Positions 3,020 to 59,501 of a DNA stretch of 64,000 nucleotides are shown piece by piece. Location: positions 62,001 through 126,000 of the forward strand of contig CAINDA010000041.1 of assembly GCA_903847205.1 (NCBI GenBank), read 5' to 3'. A program made the translations under genes and the position numbers. The notes beneath the pieces were generated by a model, which was given only the letters and a program-made list of their open reading frames with translations, was not told the DNA's origin and ran no database searches. The first letter of the stretch is position 1, and every line of letters begins with the position of its first letter. Origin of the DNA: an uncultured Bacteroidota bacterium. Lineage in GTDB: Bacteria; Bacteroidota; Bacteroidia; 2-12-FULL-35-15.

Positions 3020-4141
3020 CTAATTGTCTTTATACAATGAAATCAATTGTTTTGAAATGTTTTTAGGATGAAATTTTTGAACATATTCAAATCCTTTATC
3101 AGAAATTTGCCTGCAAATAGATTCAGAATTTAAAAGGAAATTTATTTTCTCCGCCAATTCATTTTCATCATGAGGATTAATATAAATTGAATCATTACCG
3201 CCGGCTTCAGCGAAACAGCTGTTTTGAGAAGTAATTACAGGCGTTTTACTTATCATAGCTTCAATGATAGGTATGCCGAAACCCTCGAATAAGGAAGGGA
3301 AAATAAAAATTTCAGCCAAACGATATATAGCCGAAAGATCAGTGTTACTGACATCTTCAAGAAACAGCAAGCGGTTTTCAAGTTTGTTTCCCTGAATATA
3401 TTCCAGCACTGAATTAAAATATTTTTTTTTCTTTCCGATAACAACTAAAGGAATATCTCTTACCTGTTTAAGCGCTTTTACCAAAGTCAGCAGATTTTTT
3501 CTTTCCTCGATAGTGCCGACATACAATAAAAAATTGACAGGGAGCTGATGCTTCTTAATTACCTGCTGCAGATGGGTTTCTGAGGGTTCATTGTAAAATA
3601 ATTCGTCACAGCTTTGATAGATTACTTTAATCTTATTTTCTGGAATTGAATAATATTTTATTATGTCTTGTTTTGTCGCCTCGCTAATAGCAACAATAGT
3701 ATCAGCTGTATCGCAGGCATGGCGGAATTTTTTATTGTAAATTTTTTGATCGAGAAAGGGATACAAATTAGGATATCGGAGAAAAATTAAATCATGAATA
3801 GTTACAATTTTTCTGCCTTTGAAATTTTGTATATTAAACGGGAGTTCATTGCTGAGTCCGTGATATACATCAATATTGTTTTGATTCAGCAGGTCGGTAA
3901 TACCAAAAGAACGCCAGCGTGATCGTAAATTTTTATCAATAAAATTTTGAGGCTCAATTACTTTTATATTTTTTTGCGTTGAAACAAATTTTTGAAAATC
4001 ATTGTCCGGCTGGTGAGTTGTAAATAAGGAGTAATTATTTTCGGGATAATATTTATTCAGTGATTTAACAAGCGTGCGTGAATAGTTGCCTAATCCGCTG
4101 TGATTAAGGAAAGCCCGCTTGGCATCAAATGCAATATTCAT
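3020..4141 (-). CDS. Family 4-type (GT-B) glycosyltransferase
   Basis: This 373-aa protein has the two-domain GT-B layout of group 1/GT4 glycosyltransferases. The N-terminal acceptor domain begins FDAKRAFLNHSGLGNYSRTL. The C-terminal nucleotide-sugar domain contains LLYVGTIEERKN (205-216) and the E-x7-E signature FEGFGIPIIE (285-294), whose glutamates contact the donor sugar in characterised members. Length is normal for the family. It probably acts at the cytoplasmic face on a polysaccharide or glycolipid, but donor and acceptor are unknown. It is not obviously in an operon: the next minus-strand gene, dapD, lies about 90 bp upstream across an AT-rich spacer. Confidence 0.85.
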   Translation of the reverse strand: MNIAFDAKRAFLNHSGLGNYSRTLVKSLNKYYPENNYSLFTTHQPDNDFQKFVSTQKNIKVIEPQNFIDKNLRSRWRSFGITDLLNQNNIDVYHGLSNELPFNIQNFKGRKIVTIHDLIFLRYPNLYPFLDQKIYNKKFRHACDTADTIVAISEATKQDIIKYYSIPENKIKVIYQSCDELFYNEPSETHLQQVIKKHQLPVNFLLYVGTIEERKNLLTLVKALKQVRDIPLVVIGKKKKYFNSVLEYIQGNKLENRLLFLEDVSNTDLSAIYRLAEIFIFPSLFEGFGIPIIEAMISKTPVITSQNSCFAEAGGNDSIYINPHDENELAEKINFLLNSESICRQISDKGFEYVQKFHPKNISKQLISLYKDN

Positions 4142-17747: not shown

Positions 17748-19088
17748 ATGTTTGATAATTTAAGCAGTAAACTAGAGAGAGCCTTTAAGCTATTAAAAGG
17801 TCAGGGGAAAATCACAGAAATAAACGTATCCGAAACAATTAAGGAAATCCGGAAAGCCTTATTGGATGCCGATGTTAACTACAAAGTAGCCAAGCAATTT
17901 ACTGATACAGTAAAAGAAAAAGCCTTGGGGCAGAATGTGCTTACTGCAATTTCGCCGGGGCAGTTAATGATAAAAATTACTCAACAGGAGCTTACTGACT
18001 TAATGGGCGGGGCTTCAGCTGAAATTAAATTGGGCGGCAACCCGACTGTAATATTAATGAGCGGTCTGCAAGGGTCAGGTAAAACTACCTTTTCCGGTAA
18101 ACTCGCAAATTATCTTAAAACTAAACGGGGGAAAAAACCGCTGCTTGTTGCCTGCGATATTTATCGTCCGGCTGCAATCCAGCAATTGCATGTATTGGGC
18201 GAGCAGATCGGCGTTGATGTTTATTCCGATCCTGAAAATAAAGATGCTGTATCTATTGCAAAACGCAGTATTCAATATGCAAAAGAAAATGGAAACAGCA
18301 TTGTAATTATAGATACAGCGGGACGTTTGGCGATTGATGATGTAATGATGAAGGAGATTGCAGCAGTAAAAAAAGCAGTGGAGCCTGATGAAATATTGTT
18401 TGTTGTTGATGCAATGACCGGCCAGGACGCAGTAAACACAGCAAAAGCCTTTAACGATATTCTTGATTTCAGCGGTGTAGTATTAACCAAAATGGACGGT
18501 GATACACGCGGCGGGGCTGCTCTGTCCATTAAATCTGTTGTAAACAAACCCATTATGTTTGTGGGAACAGGAGAGAAGATGGAAGCAATGGATGTGTTTC
18601 ATCCAAGCCGTATGGCCGATCGTATTTTGGGAATGGGCGATGTTGTAACTTTTGTTGAGCGCGCCGAAGAACAGTATAATGTTGAAGAAGCAAGAAAACT
18701 GCAGAAGAAGATTGCAAAAAATCAATTCAGTTTTAACGACTTTTTAGACCAGTTGCAGCAGATAAAAAAAATGGGAAATATTAAAGATTTGGTCGGCATG
18801 ATTCCCGGTGTAGGCAAGGCTTTGAAGAATGTTGATATTGATGATAATGCATTTGTAAGTATTGAAGCAATCATTTCCTCAATGACTCCTGCTGAACGCG
18901 AAAACCCTGAGCTGCTGAATGGCAAACGCAGAGACCGCATAGCAAAAGGCAGCGGCCGTTCAACACAGGATGTAAACAGGCTTATAAAGCAATTTGACGA
19001 TACCCGCAAGATGATGAAAATGATGAACAATAAAGAAGGGCTTGCTAAGATGATGTCGCAGATGAAAAATATGCCGGGGATGAAGTAG
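17748..19088 (+). CDS. ffh: Signal recognition particle protein Ffh
   Basis: Ffh is the GTPase that binds 4.5S RNA and signal sequences and targets ribosomes to the membrane. The 446-aa protein has the N domain (residues 1-95), then the G domain with the P-loop GLQGSGKTTFSGKLA (about 106-120), DTAGRL, and TKMDGDTRGGAALS. The C-terminal M domain is methionine-rich (DDTRKMMKMMNNKEGLAKMM). Length is normal. It has its own promoter and is separated from folD by an unusual inverted-repeat spacer. Confidence 0.98.
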   Translation: MFDNLSSKLERAFKLLKGQGKITEINVSETIKEIRKALLDADVNYKVAKQFTDTVKEKALGQNVLTAISPGQLMIKITQQELTDLMGGASAEIKLGGNPTVILMSGLQGSGKTTFSGKLANYLKTKRGKKPLLVACDIYRPAAIQQLHVLGEQIGVDVYSDPENKDAVSIAKRSIQYAKENGNSIVIIDTAGRLAIDDVMMKEIAAVKKAVEPDEILFVVDAMTGQDAVNTAKAFNDILDFSGVVLTKMDGDTRGGAALSIKSVVNKPIMFVGTGEKMEAMDVFHPSRMADRILGMGDVVTFVERAEEQYNVEEARKLQKKIAKNQFSFNDFLDQLQQIKKMGNIKDLVGMIPGVGKALKNVDIDDNAFVSIEAIISSMTPAERENPELLNGKRRDRIAKGSGRSTQDVNRLIKQFDDTRKMMKMMNNKEGLAKMMSQMKNMPGMK

Positions 19089-19095
19089 TGATTTA

Positions 19096-19267
19096 GTGAA
19101 TTAGAGATTTGGAGAAATAGAGATTTGAAAAATTAGAATAAATGCATACATTCAAAAAACTAGTACCATAGCAATTCTCCAATCTCTAAATTTCAAATTC
19201 TCTAAATCTCTAATTCCATAAATCTCAAATTCTTCAAATCTCTATTTCTCCAAATCCCTAATTCAAC
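19096..19267. repeat. Long imperfect inverted repeat between ffh and folD
   Basis: The left arm (19096-19136) and right arm (19227-19267) are reverse complements at about 37 of 41 positions. The core shared word is ATTTGGAGAAATAGAGATTT. A degenerate third copy of the right-arm word lies between them (about 19171-19219). In RNA this would fold into a stem of about 40 bp enclosing 90 nt. Neither end has a T-run, so it is not a simple terminator. Confidence 0.85.
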
Positions 19268-24236: not shown

Positions 24237-24908
24237 ATGAGCCGCATGAGTTTTTAACAGCTGCATTTAATCTTCCTTAGTAAACAAGTAAATCTTTTAA
24301 GTTTGAAGTTCACTCAACAGACAAGTTATACTTTTTAACCCTGACACAGTTTATTGAACAGACTCTAAACAATCCCTCTCAGAGTAAAAACAGTCCTGCT
24401 CAGAGTAAAAACACTCCTGTTCAGAAGAGAAACAGTCCTGCTCAGAGTAAAAACAGTCCTGCTCAGAGTAAAAACACTCCTGTTCAGAAGAGAAACAGAC
24501 CTTCTCAGAGTAAAAACAGTCCTGCTCAGAGTAAAAACAGTCCTGCTCAGAGTAAAAACACTCCTGTTCAGAAGAGAAACACTCCTGTTCAGAAGAGAAA
24601 CACTCCTGTTCAGAAGAGAAACACTCCTGTTCAGAGTAAAAACAGTCCTGCTCAGAGTAAAAACACTCCTGTTCAGAAGAGAAACAGACCTGCTCAGAGT
24701 AAAAACACTCCTGTTCAGAGTAGAAACAGTCCTGTTCAGAGTAAAAACACTCCTGTTCAGAAGAGAAACAGTCCTGCTCAGAGTAAAAACAGTTCTGTTC
24801 AGAATAACTGCCTAAAGGTTTAAAATTTTTGCACTAAATTTACCGCCTGCCGGACCGCTTTGAAACGAAATAATAAAAGCATCCGAGATAAAATGCAAAG
24901 GAGAAACA
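24237..24908. other. 672-bp gene-free region dominated by tandem array A
   Basis: Between the RlmI-family gene and the TMTC-like gene (both plus strand) no gene with a usable start was found. Positions 24359-24799 are the 21-bp array. The frame through the array is open from about 24286 to 24822 but contains no ATG, GTG or TTG start. After the array there is a candidate -7 box, TAAATTTA near 24834, for the next gene. Confidence 0.7.
24359..24799. repeat. Tandem array A: 21 units of exactly 21 bp
   Basis: Twenty-one head-to-tail units run without any indel; the first is degenerate and a partial unit follows at 24800. Consensus unit: CAGAGTAAAAACAGTCCTGC plus T. Variation is restricted: the first 12 bases are CAGAGTAAAAAC or CAGAAGAGAAAC, and the last 9 are AGTCCTGCT or ACTCCTGTT, with few exceptions. 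There are no unique spacers, so it is not a CRISPR. Most units have an A5 tract at a constant phase. Confidence 0.97.
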
Positions 24909-28413: not shown

Positions 28414-29121
28414 TTATTTCAAATTGTGATAAACCGTCTGAACATCGTCTTCTTCTTCAAGTTTACTTACCAGAATCATTACTTCTTCAATCTGTTCATC
28501 AGTTAAACTCACTGTTGATGAAGGAATGCGTTCTAATTCAGAACTGATTATGGTTAGTTTTTTTGTTTCCAAAGCTTTTTGCATCATACCGAAATCTTTG
28601 AAAAGTGTATAAACAACAATTTCTTCATCATCTCCTTCTATTTCATCAGCACCGAAATCAATCAGCTCCATCTCTAAATCTTCCAGATTAATATTTTCAT
28701 TCTTAATCCTAAAAACGCCTTTGCGCTCAAACAAATAATCTAAAGAGCCTGTTTTGCCTAATTCGCCGCCGTATCGGTTGAAATTCATTCTCACATTTGC
28801 AACAGTACGGGTAGGATTATCAGTAGCGCACTCACATAAAATAGCTGTCCCGAAAGGTCCTTTTCCTTCATATATCATTTCTTCGTAATGTGATACATCT
28901 TTTGCTGTGGCTCGTTTAATAGCGGCATCAATGCGGTCTTTAGGCATATTAAGCCCTTTGGCATTTTGAATTGCAACACGCAGACGCGCGTTGCCATTGG
29001 GGTCTCCGCCGCCAAGTTTTATTGCAATTGCTATTTCTTTACCAATACGGGTAAAGCCTTTTGCCATTTTATCATAGCGGGCAAACATTTTATATTTCCG
29101 CTTTTCAAATACACGTCCCAT
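28414..29121 (-). CDS. YebC/PmpR family protein
   Basis: This 235-aa protein matches the YebC/PmpR/TACO1 family over its full length: FARYDKMAKGFTRIGKEIAIA near the N-terminus, GGGDPNGNARLRVAIQNAKG (about 38-57), NMPKDRIDAAIKRA (58-71) and YEGKGPFGTAILCECATDN. Members were first called transcriptional regulators and are more recently implicated in translation. It is a single gene whose 5' side faces tandem array B, so its promoter must lie between 29122 and the array or within it. Confidence 0.93.
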   Translation of the reverse strand: MGRVFEKRKYKMFARYDKMAKGFTRIGKEIAIAIKLGGGDPNGNARLRVAIQNAKGLNMPKDRIDAAIKRATAKDVSHYEEMIYEGKGPFGTAILCECATDNPTRTVANVRMNFNRYGGELGKTGSLDYLFERKGVFRIKNENINLEDLEMELIDFGADEIEGDDEEIVVYTLFKDFGMMQKALETKKLTIISSELERIPSSTVSLTDEQIEEVMILVSKLEEEDDVQTVYHNLK

Positions 29122-29706
29122 GATGAAATAAAATTATTTAGAGTTGAAAATTTTAAGACTGCAAATTTATAAAAAAGGATGATTACTCAATAATTGAATT
29201 GATGAATTGAAGCAAACAAATCATGAGATTGAACAAATAGGCAGTAAGAATAAAAAAATCGATGATGAAAATGGACAAATAGAATGTAAAAGTTAACAAA
29301 TGGGTTGTGAAAGTTAAAAAATCGCATCTCACAGTTGAAAAATCGAAAGTGAAAGTGAACAAATCGAATGTGAAAGTTAACAAATCGCATCTAACAGTTG
29401 AAAAATCGAATGTGAAAGTCAACAAATGGGATGTGAAAGTTGAAAAATCGAATGTGAAAGTGAAAAGAACGCATGTGAAAGTAGAAAGAAGGCTTCTCAA
29501 TGTAAACAAATGGAATGTTAATTAAACAAATGACATCTTGAAGTAAACAAATCGCGTCTTGAAGTTGAAAAATCGCTTCTACAAGTAAACAAATCGTATC
29601 TCCAAGTAAACAAATACCATCTTGAAGTGAACAAATGGCTTCTTGAAATGAACAAATGGCATCACGAAGTAAACGAATGGTTAATCAGATGAGAGATAGA
29701 GTTTAA
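29122..29706. other. 585-bp gene-free region dominated by tandem array B
   Basis: This region lies between the start of the YebC-family gene and the end of the membrane-protein gene, both minus strand. Apart from the array at 29211-29692 it holds only about 90 bp of AT-rich leader. Open frames on both strands here (for example 29307-29525 plus, 29183-29509 minus) are by-products of the 21-bp period. Confidence 0.75.
29211..29692. repeat. Tandem array B: about 23 degenerate units of 21 bp
   Basis: About 23 consecutive units keep a 21-bp register from 29232 to 29504, then after one 20-bp unit (29505-29524) continue in register to 29692. The first unit, at 29211-29231, is degenerate. Consensus is roughly AACAAATCGNATGTGAAAGT plus T, with the second half alternating between GTGAAAGT and CTTGAAGT forms. 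Units are more diverged than in array A, which suggests an older array. Consensus words are unrelated to arrays A and C. Confidence 0.93.
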
Positions 29707-58088: not shown

Positions 58089-58430
58089 TTATACTGCAAG
58101 TATTTCGGCAGCTTCGGGTACTGTGCTGGTAATATTTAAAATAGTATCTAACTGAGAAATTGAAATTAATTTTTTTACTGTATCCTGCAGCCCTGTTAAT
58201 ACAAATACCCCCTGACTGTTTTTACACAAGCGGTTAGCTACCAGAATGGCGCTTAAACCGGAGGAATCGCAGTAGCGTGTTTCGGATAAATCAATAATAA
58301 TATTTTTTACCCCGTCGGTATTCAGCACAACCAGCTCAGATTTAAGTGCGGGTGCTAAACTGCTGTCTAACTTTTCGGCATTCAGCCTGATTAAAGTATA
58401 GCTGTCTTTTTTTTCTACTAGAAAACTCAT
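58089..58430 (-). CDS. STAS-domain anti-sigma factor antagonist-like protein
   Basis: This 113-aa single STAS-domain protein has the fold and length of SpoIIAA/RsbV. IIIDLSETRYCDSSGLSAIL (about 44-63) contains the D-S-S-G motif, whose serine is phosphorylated by a cognate anti-sigma kinase in known members. No kinase or alternative sigma gene is nearby, so its partner must be elsewhere, and the regulated output is unknown. Confidence 0.88.
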   Translation of the reverse strand: MSFLVEKKDSYTLIRLNAEKLDSSLAPALKSELVVLNTDGVKNIIIDLSETRYCDSSGLSAILVANRLCKNSQGVFVLTGLQDTVKKLISISQLDTILNITSTVPEAAEILAV

Positions 58431-58961
58431 TGTGATTTTTTTTGTAAAAGTAGGGAATTTTTATGAACTACCGCGGATTACAGAGAAAAAATTGAAGCTG
58501 AAAGTATAGTTTATTGCTTCAGCAGTTTTTTCATTTACACATGTTCTGATCCAAAGCTATAAATCCATCGCATAGTCCCAAAATATAACCATGTGACCCA
58601 GCAGCGGGTTCACCCAATTTAATAATACTACCGTCCAGTTCGAAAGCGCGTCTGCGAAATTCCAATGCGCGTCCGTTCAATTCAAAGGGACGATTGCCCG
58701 GCGATAAAAGGCGTGCCTATAATTCAAAAAGGCGGGCGCCCAACGCAATAAGGCGGGTGCTCGGAACAAAAAGGCGGTCATCTTATTCAAAAAGGCGGAC
58801 GCCCGGAGCAAAAAGGCGGGCAGCTTATTCAAAAAGGCGAGCGCCGAAAAATAACTTTATTCCTTAATATTTATTGGAGTAATAATTTGTTTTATAATTA
58901 CGCTTGCAGAAATCAAATATAGAATACCTTTCTAAAAGTTTAATGACTTAAAAAAATTATT
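58431..58961. other. 531-bp gene-free divergent region with tandem array C
   Basis: This region lies between the divergent STAS and GNAT genes. Positions 58630-58839 are the third 21-bp array; degenerate traces of the same period may extend further left. The rest is AT-rich, with no usable ORF. A weak -7-like TACCTTTC lies near 58925. Confidence 0.7.
58630..58839. repeat. Tandem array C: 10 units of exactly 21 bp
   Basis: Ten consecutive units have no indels. Each unit ends in a conserved AAAAAGGCG-type block (ATTCAAAAAGGCG in the best copies), preceded by a more variable 10-12 bp. The array is visibly richer in G+C than its surroundings. One frame is open for about 40 codons but has no start codon. 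The consensus is unrelated to arrays A and B. Confidence 0.93.
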
Positions 58962-59501
58962 ATGAAATACATTTATGACGATAATTTAGAAACGGCAAGG
59001 CTAAGAACCCGCAAAGTGACTAAAAATGACATAAGTATTTGGGCGGATTTTTTTATAGATGAAGAAGCCGTAAAGTTTCTGCCTGTTTTGGAATTTTGTT
59101 CTGCTGAAGATACGGCAGCATATTGGATTGACAAGCAGTTGAATCGTTATGTTGACGAAAGATTCGGACTTCAGGCGCTCATTGAAAAAAGTACAAATAA
59201 CTTTATAGGCCTTTGCGGACTTTTATCACAAGAGATAGATGGGAAAATAGAAATAGAAGTAGGCTATCATATTTTAAAAAAATACTGGGGACAAGGTTTT
59301 GCTCCTGAGGCTTCAAAACTTTTTATTGATTATGCCTTTAAAAACAATCTGCAAGATTCAGTAATATCAATCATTGATAAGAATAATATAAAATCTCAAA
59401 GAGTTGCGGATAAAAACGGTTTGGTGATGGAAAAAGAAATAAAATGGTCAGATAAAGATGTTTATATTTATCGCATTATAAAGCGGGATTGGAAAAATTG
59501 A
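58962..59501 (+). CDS. GNAT-family N-acetyltransferase
   Basis: This 179-aa GNAT protein is of the Acetyltransf_3 type: LETARLRTRKVTKNDISIWA near the start, EIEVGYHILKKYWGQGFAPEASKLF (acetyl-CoA loop, about 106-125) and ISIIDKNNIKSQRVADKNGL toward the end. The substrate is unknown. Array C lies directly upstream, so any promoter is in or next to the array. Confidence 0.85.
   Translation: MKYIYDDNLETARLRTRKVTKNDISIWADFFIDEEAVKFLPVLEFCSAEDTAAYWIDKQLNRYVDERFGLQALIEKSTNNFIGLCGLLSQEIDGKIEIEVGYHILKKYWGQGFAPEASKLFIDYAFKNNLQDSVISIIDKNNIKSQRVADKNGLVMEKEIKWSDKDVYIYRIIKRDWKN

Follow-up and report, generated by a model that had tools for sequence, protein, structure and literature searches.

The 64,000-nucleotide stretch analysed here (the window) belongs to the genome of an uncultured Bacteroidota bacterium, G000, within which the loci C45, C20, C28, C61 and similar ones named below also lie. 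In it, a STAS-domain gene and a GNAT acetyltransferase gene are separated by a short tandem array, array C, and both are transcribed away from it; arrays A and B, elsewhere in the window, repeat at the same step with unrelated units (Table 1). In many relatives the STAS gene forms a cassette with a T9SS-tail protein and RNase Z. Array A consists of two or three linked subtypes with GTAA/AGAG endings, arranged head to tail.

Table 1. Positions of arrays and neighbouring genes, in window coordinates except for the last two rows
Feature	Position	Strand	Details
Array A	24367..24807	+	21 units of exactly 21 bp, intergenic, AAACAGTCCTGCTCAGAGTAA, unrelated to array C
YebC/TACO1-family gene, downstream of array B	28414..29121	-	
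Array B	29256..29680	+	about 20 units of 21 bp, unrelated to array C; upstream of YebC-family gene
STAS-domain protein, left of array C	58089..58430	-	PF01740
Array C	58630..58839	+	ten 21-bp units; subtypes CCCGGAGC / CTTATTC alternate
Best-preserved core of array C	58714..58845	+	AAAAAGGCG blocks, G+C 0.54
GNAT acetyltransferase, right of array C	58962..59501	+	PF13302
G004 array, copy in L239	1259-1738		
G004 array, copy in L242	1253-1707		

That array C is a real repeat, far above chance, is confirmed. Its ten units keep an exact 21-bp register with zero indels; by autocorrelation its self-identity is 0.54 at lag 21, 0.62 at lag 42 and 0.59 at lag 63, above the maximum of 0.42 reached in 500 dinucleotide shuffles (lags 10-63), and TRF detects it with periods of 21 and 42. 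Its head-to-tail units, in the range of 10-100 bp and recurring above chance, are those of a bacterial minisatellite or intergenic tandem repeat. The block AAAAAGGCG is exact in five of the ten units (at 58714, 58756, 58777, 58798 and 58819) and nearly so in two more (AATAAGGCG at 58735 and TAAAAGGCG at 58693); an A-rich GGCG block is common to the right six or seven units, and the three leftmost are strongly decayed. Variation within units is concentrated in one part (P 0.009), and the array is richer in G+C (0.53) than the spacers on its two sides (0.34 and 0.19). The sequence-only reading had described exact 21-bp steps, a constant block with a variable part, a recurring CTTATTC and a G+C-rich island; each of these holds, and the alternative CCCGGAGC type recurs too. 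An Rfam search gave no match anywhere in the window.

The variable segments and a second copy

What are the variable segments of array C? A whole-genome search recovered a single clearly related array, at C45 (~324.5-324.9 kb), inverted and 81-83% identical to array C. With the two brought into phase, …CCCGGAGCAAAAAGGCG and …CTTATTCAAAAAGGCG take turns through the middle of the C45 array, the subtypes alternate likewise in the preserved half of array C, and the units of the two arrays match subtype by subtype, unit 58798 differing from a C45 unit by 1 mismatch in 21. The variable segments are mainly the two subtypes of a partly decayed 42-bp two-unit higher-order repeat, overlaid by point decay that increases toward the left edge, and one such two-unit ancestor would have given rise to both array C and the C45 copy. 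In an array at G000:C45 522-941 (L006), units pair across their borders, with seemingly covarying arms TGCTG..CAGCA and TGTTG..CAACA, and the array folds with z of about -3 to -4 on both strands when compared with column-shuffled controls.

Since both arrays draw their variable parts from one pair of alternating subtypes, these parts are not spacers. The alternation of a variable part with a constant block does recall a miniature CRISPR-like array that stores spacers, the pattern to which the sequence-only reading had likened it, but array C does not hold unique spacers between identical repeats: its variable parts recur and are shared with C45, the unit is too short, and the arrays have no conserved repeat in common. 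Looking for the segments in the same genome and among phages and plasmids, as had been proposed, gave a second array in the first case and nothing in the others, array C having zero matches in 50,697 phage and 72,556 plasmid records, as well as in 58 relatives. For array C the shared alternating subtypes refute a spacer store, to which we give next to no chance, and they bear out the earlier remark that the variable parts are not unique spacers, since subtypes recur both within array C and at C45. The two-block pattern of array C matched 61 viral contigs, once each, and among these stretches a short 21-bp periodicity occurs in L161 only.

Arrays of one length and many sequences

About 20 intergenic arrays, array C among them, lie in the 1.15 Mb of G000 that was examined. 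A TRF survey of 1,154,499 bases (~21% of the genome), confined to arrays not inside a longer ORF, gave periods of 21 bp (n=15), 63 (n=4), 62 (n=2) and 42 (n=1), and one array each at 7, 16, 22, 32, 40, 41, 77, 99 and 125, with array B counted as two entries; autocorrelation agrees with these counts. By extrapolation, the whole genome would hold on the order of 100 arrays. Both 62-bp arrays are higher-order repeats of 21+21+20, and two of the four 63-bp arrays subdivide into 21, the other two (C10:2013 and C6:86227) remaining undivided. The consensus units of 26 arrays resemble one another at shuffle level except for the pairs C/C45 and B/C20, and their comparison yields no single signature sequence at all loci, as a STAR-like family would have. 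The unit family of array B has relatives at C20 and C28 and more distant ones in species G004, with a weak match at C61. From locus to locus and species to species, the length is kept while the sequence changes.

An origin from 7-bp repeats can be rejected, as the arrays lack a lag-7 signal and with it a 7-bp sub-repeat. Palindromic units are rejected as a general property: strongly self-pairing units occur in about one third of the arrays, with an overall inverted-repeat excess of z 3.4, and may be a second, optional property of that subset. At G000:C10 2013-2956 (L086), neighbouring arrays of ~63 bp and 22 bp have a common core, TAATGGTAAGTAAGTGTGGG, off the 21-bp step. At 19082-19264 of the window, 16-bp (8/32) tandem arrays of AATCTCTA-like units flank a short gap, their period unlike that of the 21-bp class.

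The arrays are non-coding. Twenty-one base pairs are seven codons, and the open frames of 100-166 amino acids in some arrays would suit heptads of small repetitive proteins, but third-position bias reached P<0.05 in only 3 of 25 arrays and was absent overall, many arrays have stops in most frames, and the 62-bp higher-order repeats disrupt the frame; a kept frame combined with codon-position bias was not found. The codon-phase test is weak, three known coding repeats not being singled out by it either, and the frame-breaking repeats therefore carry more of the non-coding argument. Genuinely coding 21-bp repeats lie inside long ORFs and were excluded from the array set. The lack of general codon bias, the stops and the 62-bp repeats largely refute coding heptads, which we consider very improbable.

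Could the arrays serve promoters? The sequence-only reading had placed array C in the divergent promoter region of the STAS and GNAT genes, as a possible multi-copy protein-binding site; the location stands and the link to promoters fails. No 21-bp array lies upstream of STAS in the orthologues retrieved from ~40 relatives' loci, where the sole 21-bp signal, in L057, falls within a coding repeat, and the related array at C45 is flanked by convergent genes. The 24 arrays with both neighbours called (14 codirectional, 8 divergent, 2 convergent) flank genes in background proportions (194, 78 and 24, respectively, among intergenic gaps >150 bp), and divergent promoters are not preferred. A promoter or operator role is rejected on the STAS orthologues and the array orientations, and with it a conserved cis-regulatory site of the STAS gene. 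More broadly, an array might be a multi-copy operator that presents sites for a DNA-binding protein on one face of the helix, with the constant block (AAAAAGGCG in array C) as candidate site; this would suit the agreement of the step with helical phase, the excess of short inverted repeats within units and the clustered variation in array C and a few other arrays. However, variation clusters weakly in most arrays, and unit sequences are wholly different between arrays, so that one protein cannot recognise all of them by sequence; given also the lack of conservation upstream of STAS and of any preference for divergent promoters, we think such a binding platform unlikely.

Spread, birth and movement of the arrays

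Arrays with a 21-bp step are present in three other species of the genus: G004 has five in 100 kb (four of 21 bp and one of 42), G034 has three to four of 21 bp in 59 kb, and in G015 one 21-bp array was seen. Across 400 kb of G010, of the same genus, the non-coding DNA holds no array. Outside ORFs, ~353 kb from other species of the genus gave a single 42-bp array and none of 21 bp, and ~249 kb from other families gave none; 40 kb of G016 showed no array. Most array-negative species are represented by ~20 kb only, so that absence is firm for G010 only. A tree built on STAS and RNase Z places G004, G034 and G015 together in a clade of seven with good support, and G000 elsewhere; the arrays are patchily spread among species. 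A published Bacteroidetes MAG (Kiruna_bin-09093, L027) carries a 21-bp array at 3565-3880, near a GNAT relative, bounded by a long near-perfect inverted repeat, GGTGGCACTTTGGTTCCGC and its complement. Heptamer repeats in or beside genes of G036 and G034 (CCCGAAA, ACTGCCA and ACAACTA; G036 L226 18522-18690 and L224 7776-7905, G034 L223 245-385) are a different short-repeat class from the 21-bp arrays.

Two cases give a view of how arrays arise and move. The spacer upstream of the YebC-family gene measures 585 bp in G000 versus 70, 85 and 80 bp in G010, G026 and G016; array B fills the G000 spacer, with recognisable spacer sequence on either side, and the orthologous spacers tested hold no array. 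In G004, two copies of one array lie at unrelated loci and align gap-free over 387 bp with 95% identity; one copy carries one extra terminal 21-bp unit, and the differences between the two show mild clustering (P 0.03), which conversion between units would produce. Some arrays have a homogeneous centre and decayed edges. Features of this kind mark satellite turnover in which an array is now and then copied to a new site.

A trait of MITE-like elements, near-identity between copies that lie at unrelated places, is found in the G004 pair and, more weakly, in C/C45 and B/C20/C28. Common terminal inverted repeats, by which a classical transposon would be recognised, are rejected: they stand out at two arrays only, L027 and L139 of G004, which differ in sequence, and array flanks otherwise compare as random pairs do. 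The L139 array (18930-19100) has a step of 21 bp and a 16/17 flanking inverted repeat, CAAGAGTTTCGATAAGT. The flanks of the L239 and L242 elements contain GATTGGT-type heptamer repeats and a CCTCTCCCC-type interspersed repeat that occurs many times in G004 and G034. As makers of the arrays, reverse transcriptases are rejected (no RVT_1 in the array-rich G004, G034 and G015, several in G016), as are Y1/REP-type transposases (in 8 of 8 genomes tested, most in G016); array content is tracked by neither. No gene responsible for the arrays was found.

The 21-bp step and its place among known repeats

Bacterial tandem repeats are normally ascribed to chance slippage, without a set unit length. Why, then, 21? 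With 10.5 bp to a turn, 21 is the shortest integer length that completes whole turns; 42 and 63 do so as well, and 62 comes close. We favour, with a probability of about 60%, the reading that array C belongs, in decayed form, to a set of intergenic satellites spread over the genome with a fixed 21-bp register, which expand by themselves, hop between loci and are constrained in length at about two helical turns. Judging from the decayed edges and the higher-order repeats, unequal exchange or slippage between units would bring arrays into being and homogenise them; arrays would sometimes be copied to a new locus, and their survival would be confined to intergenic DNA. The copying or exchange process, or a bound protein, may require that successive units, irrespective of sequence, face the same side of the helix (2 x 10.5 bp), and this would hold the unit at about 21 bp. 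Such a rotational-phase requirement appears to be the best-supported reading of the constant step.

Some observations weigh against the satellite model. The number 21 is the sole ground for the helical-phase reason, and a length-measuring enzyme would look alike; one 22-bp and one 16-bp array depart from the step, two of the four 63-bp arrays lack a subdivision into 21-bp units, and the self-pairing units in about a third of the arrays hint at a further constraint outside the model. More tentatively, a length-specific enzyme or DNA-bound complex, indifferent to sequence and gauging a distance of about two turns, could build or maintain tens to about 100 unrelated arrays per genome in some species of this genus; these would then be satellites defined by register instead of sequence. 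If the arrays were instead neutral minisatellites made by slippage and unequal crossing-over, their 21 bp would be an accident of a few founders, copied and diverged beyond recognition. The decayed edges, the higher-order repeats and some related pairs or families would fit, yet most consensuses are at random similarity, four species of the genus share the step, and unconstrained indels would yield 20, 22, 23 and so on; a neutral history strikes us as improbable.

Dozens of unrelated arrays of a single length in G000, with more of them in three sister species, speak for a length constraint that acts regardless of sequence. If that constraint is a machine, it could be sought by comparing the array-rich G000, G004, G034 and G015 with the array-free G010; if it is DNA geometry, the arrays offer natural material for testing helical phasing in a bacterial nucleoid.

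Among known repeats, eukaryotic satellite DNA with higher-order repeats, such as alpha satellite, offers a parallel in its homogeneous centre, degenerate edges, multi-unit higher-order repeats, fast turnover and conserved unit length, but it occupies megabases at centromeres with a 171-bp unit, whereas the arrays here span hundreds of base pairs at what we expect to be about a hundred small sites, with a 21-bp unit. Bacterial minisatellites, or VNTR loci, likewise have tandem units, decay and higher-order repeats, but their unit lengths normally differ between loci, whereas nearly all loci here have one. Searches of the open-licence literature turned up no matching 21-bp intergenic repeats in Bacteroidota and no set characterised by its step length only. 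The STAR elements of Staphylococcus are G+C-rich, as array C is. They are intergenic direct repeats with interspersed variable parts, many per genome, whose loci differ by species and expand or contract, with an abundance independent of relatedness (PMC3532100). The arrays described here are similarly intergenic, with variable parts, many per genome and patchily distributed among species, but STAR elements have one signature sequence at all loci, whereas nearly every array here has its own sequence and only the 21-bp step is common (PMC3532100). TAACTGA heptamer repeats, intergenic in Beggiatoaceae, cyanobacteria and some Bacteroidetes, resemble our arrays as short intergenic direct-repeat arrays sporadic across taxa that include Bacteroidetes, but consist of one fixed heptamer, in contrast to the many sequences, missing 7-bp sub-repeat and lack of preferred orientation seen here (PMC4679880). 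The STAR and TAACTGA families are the nearest described, and each is defined by a shared sequence, unlike the step-defined arrays reported here.
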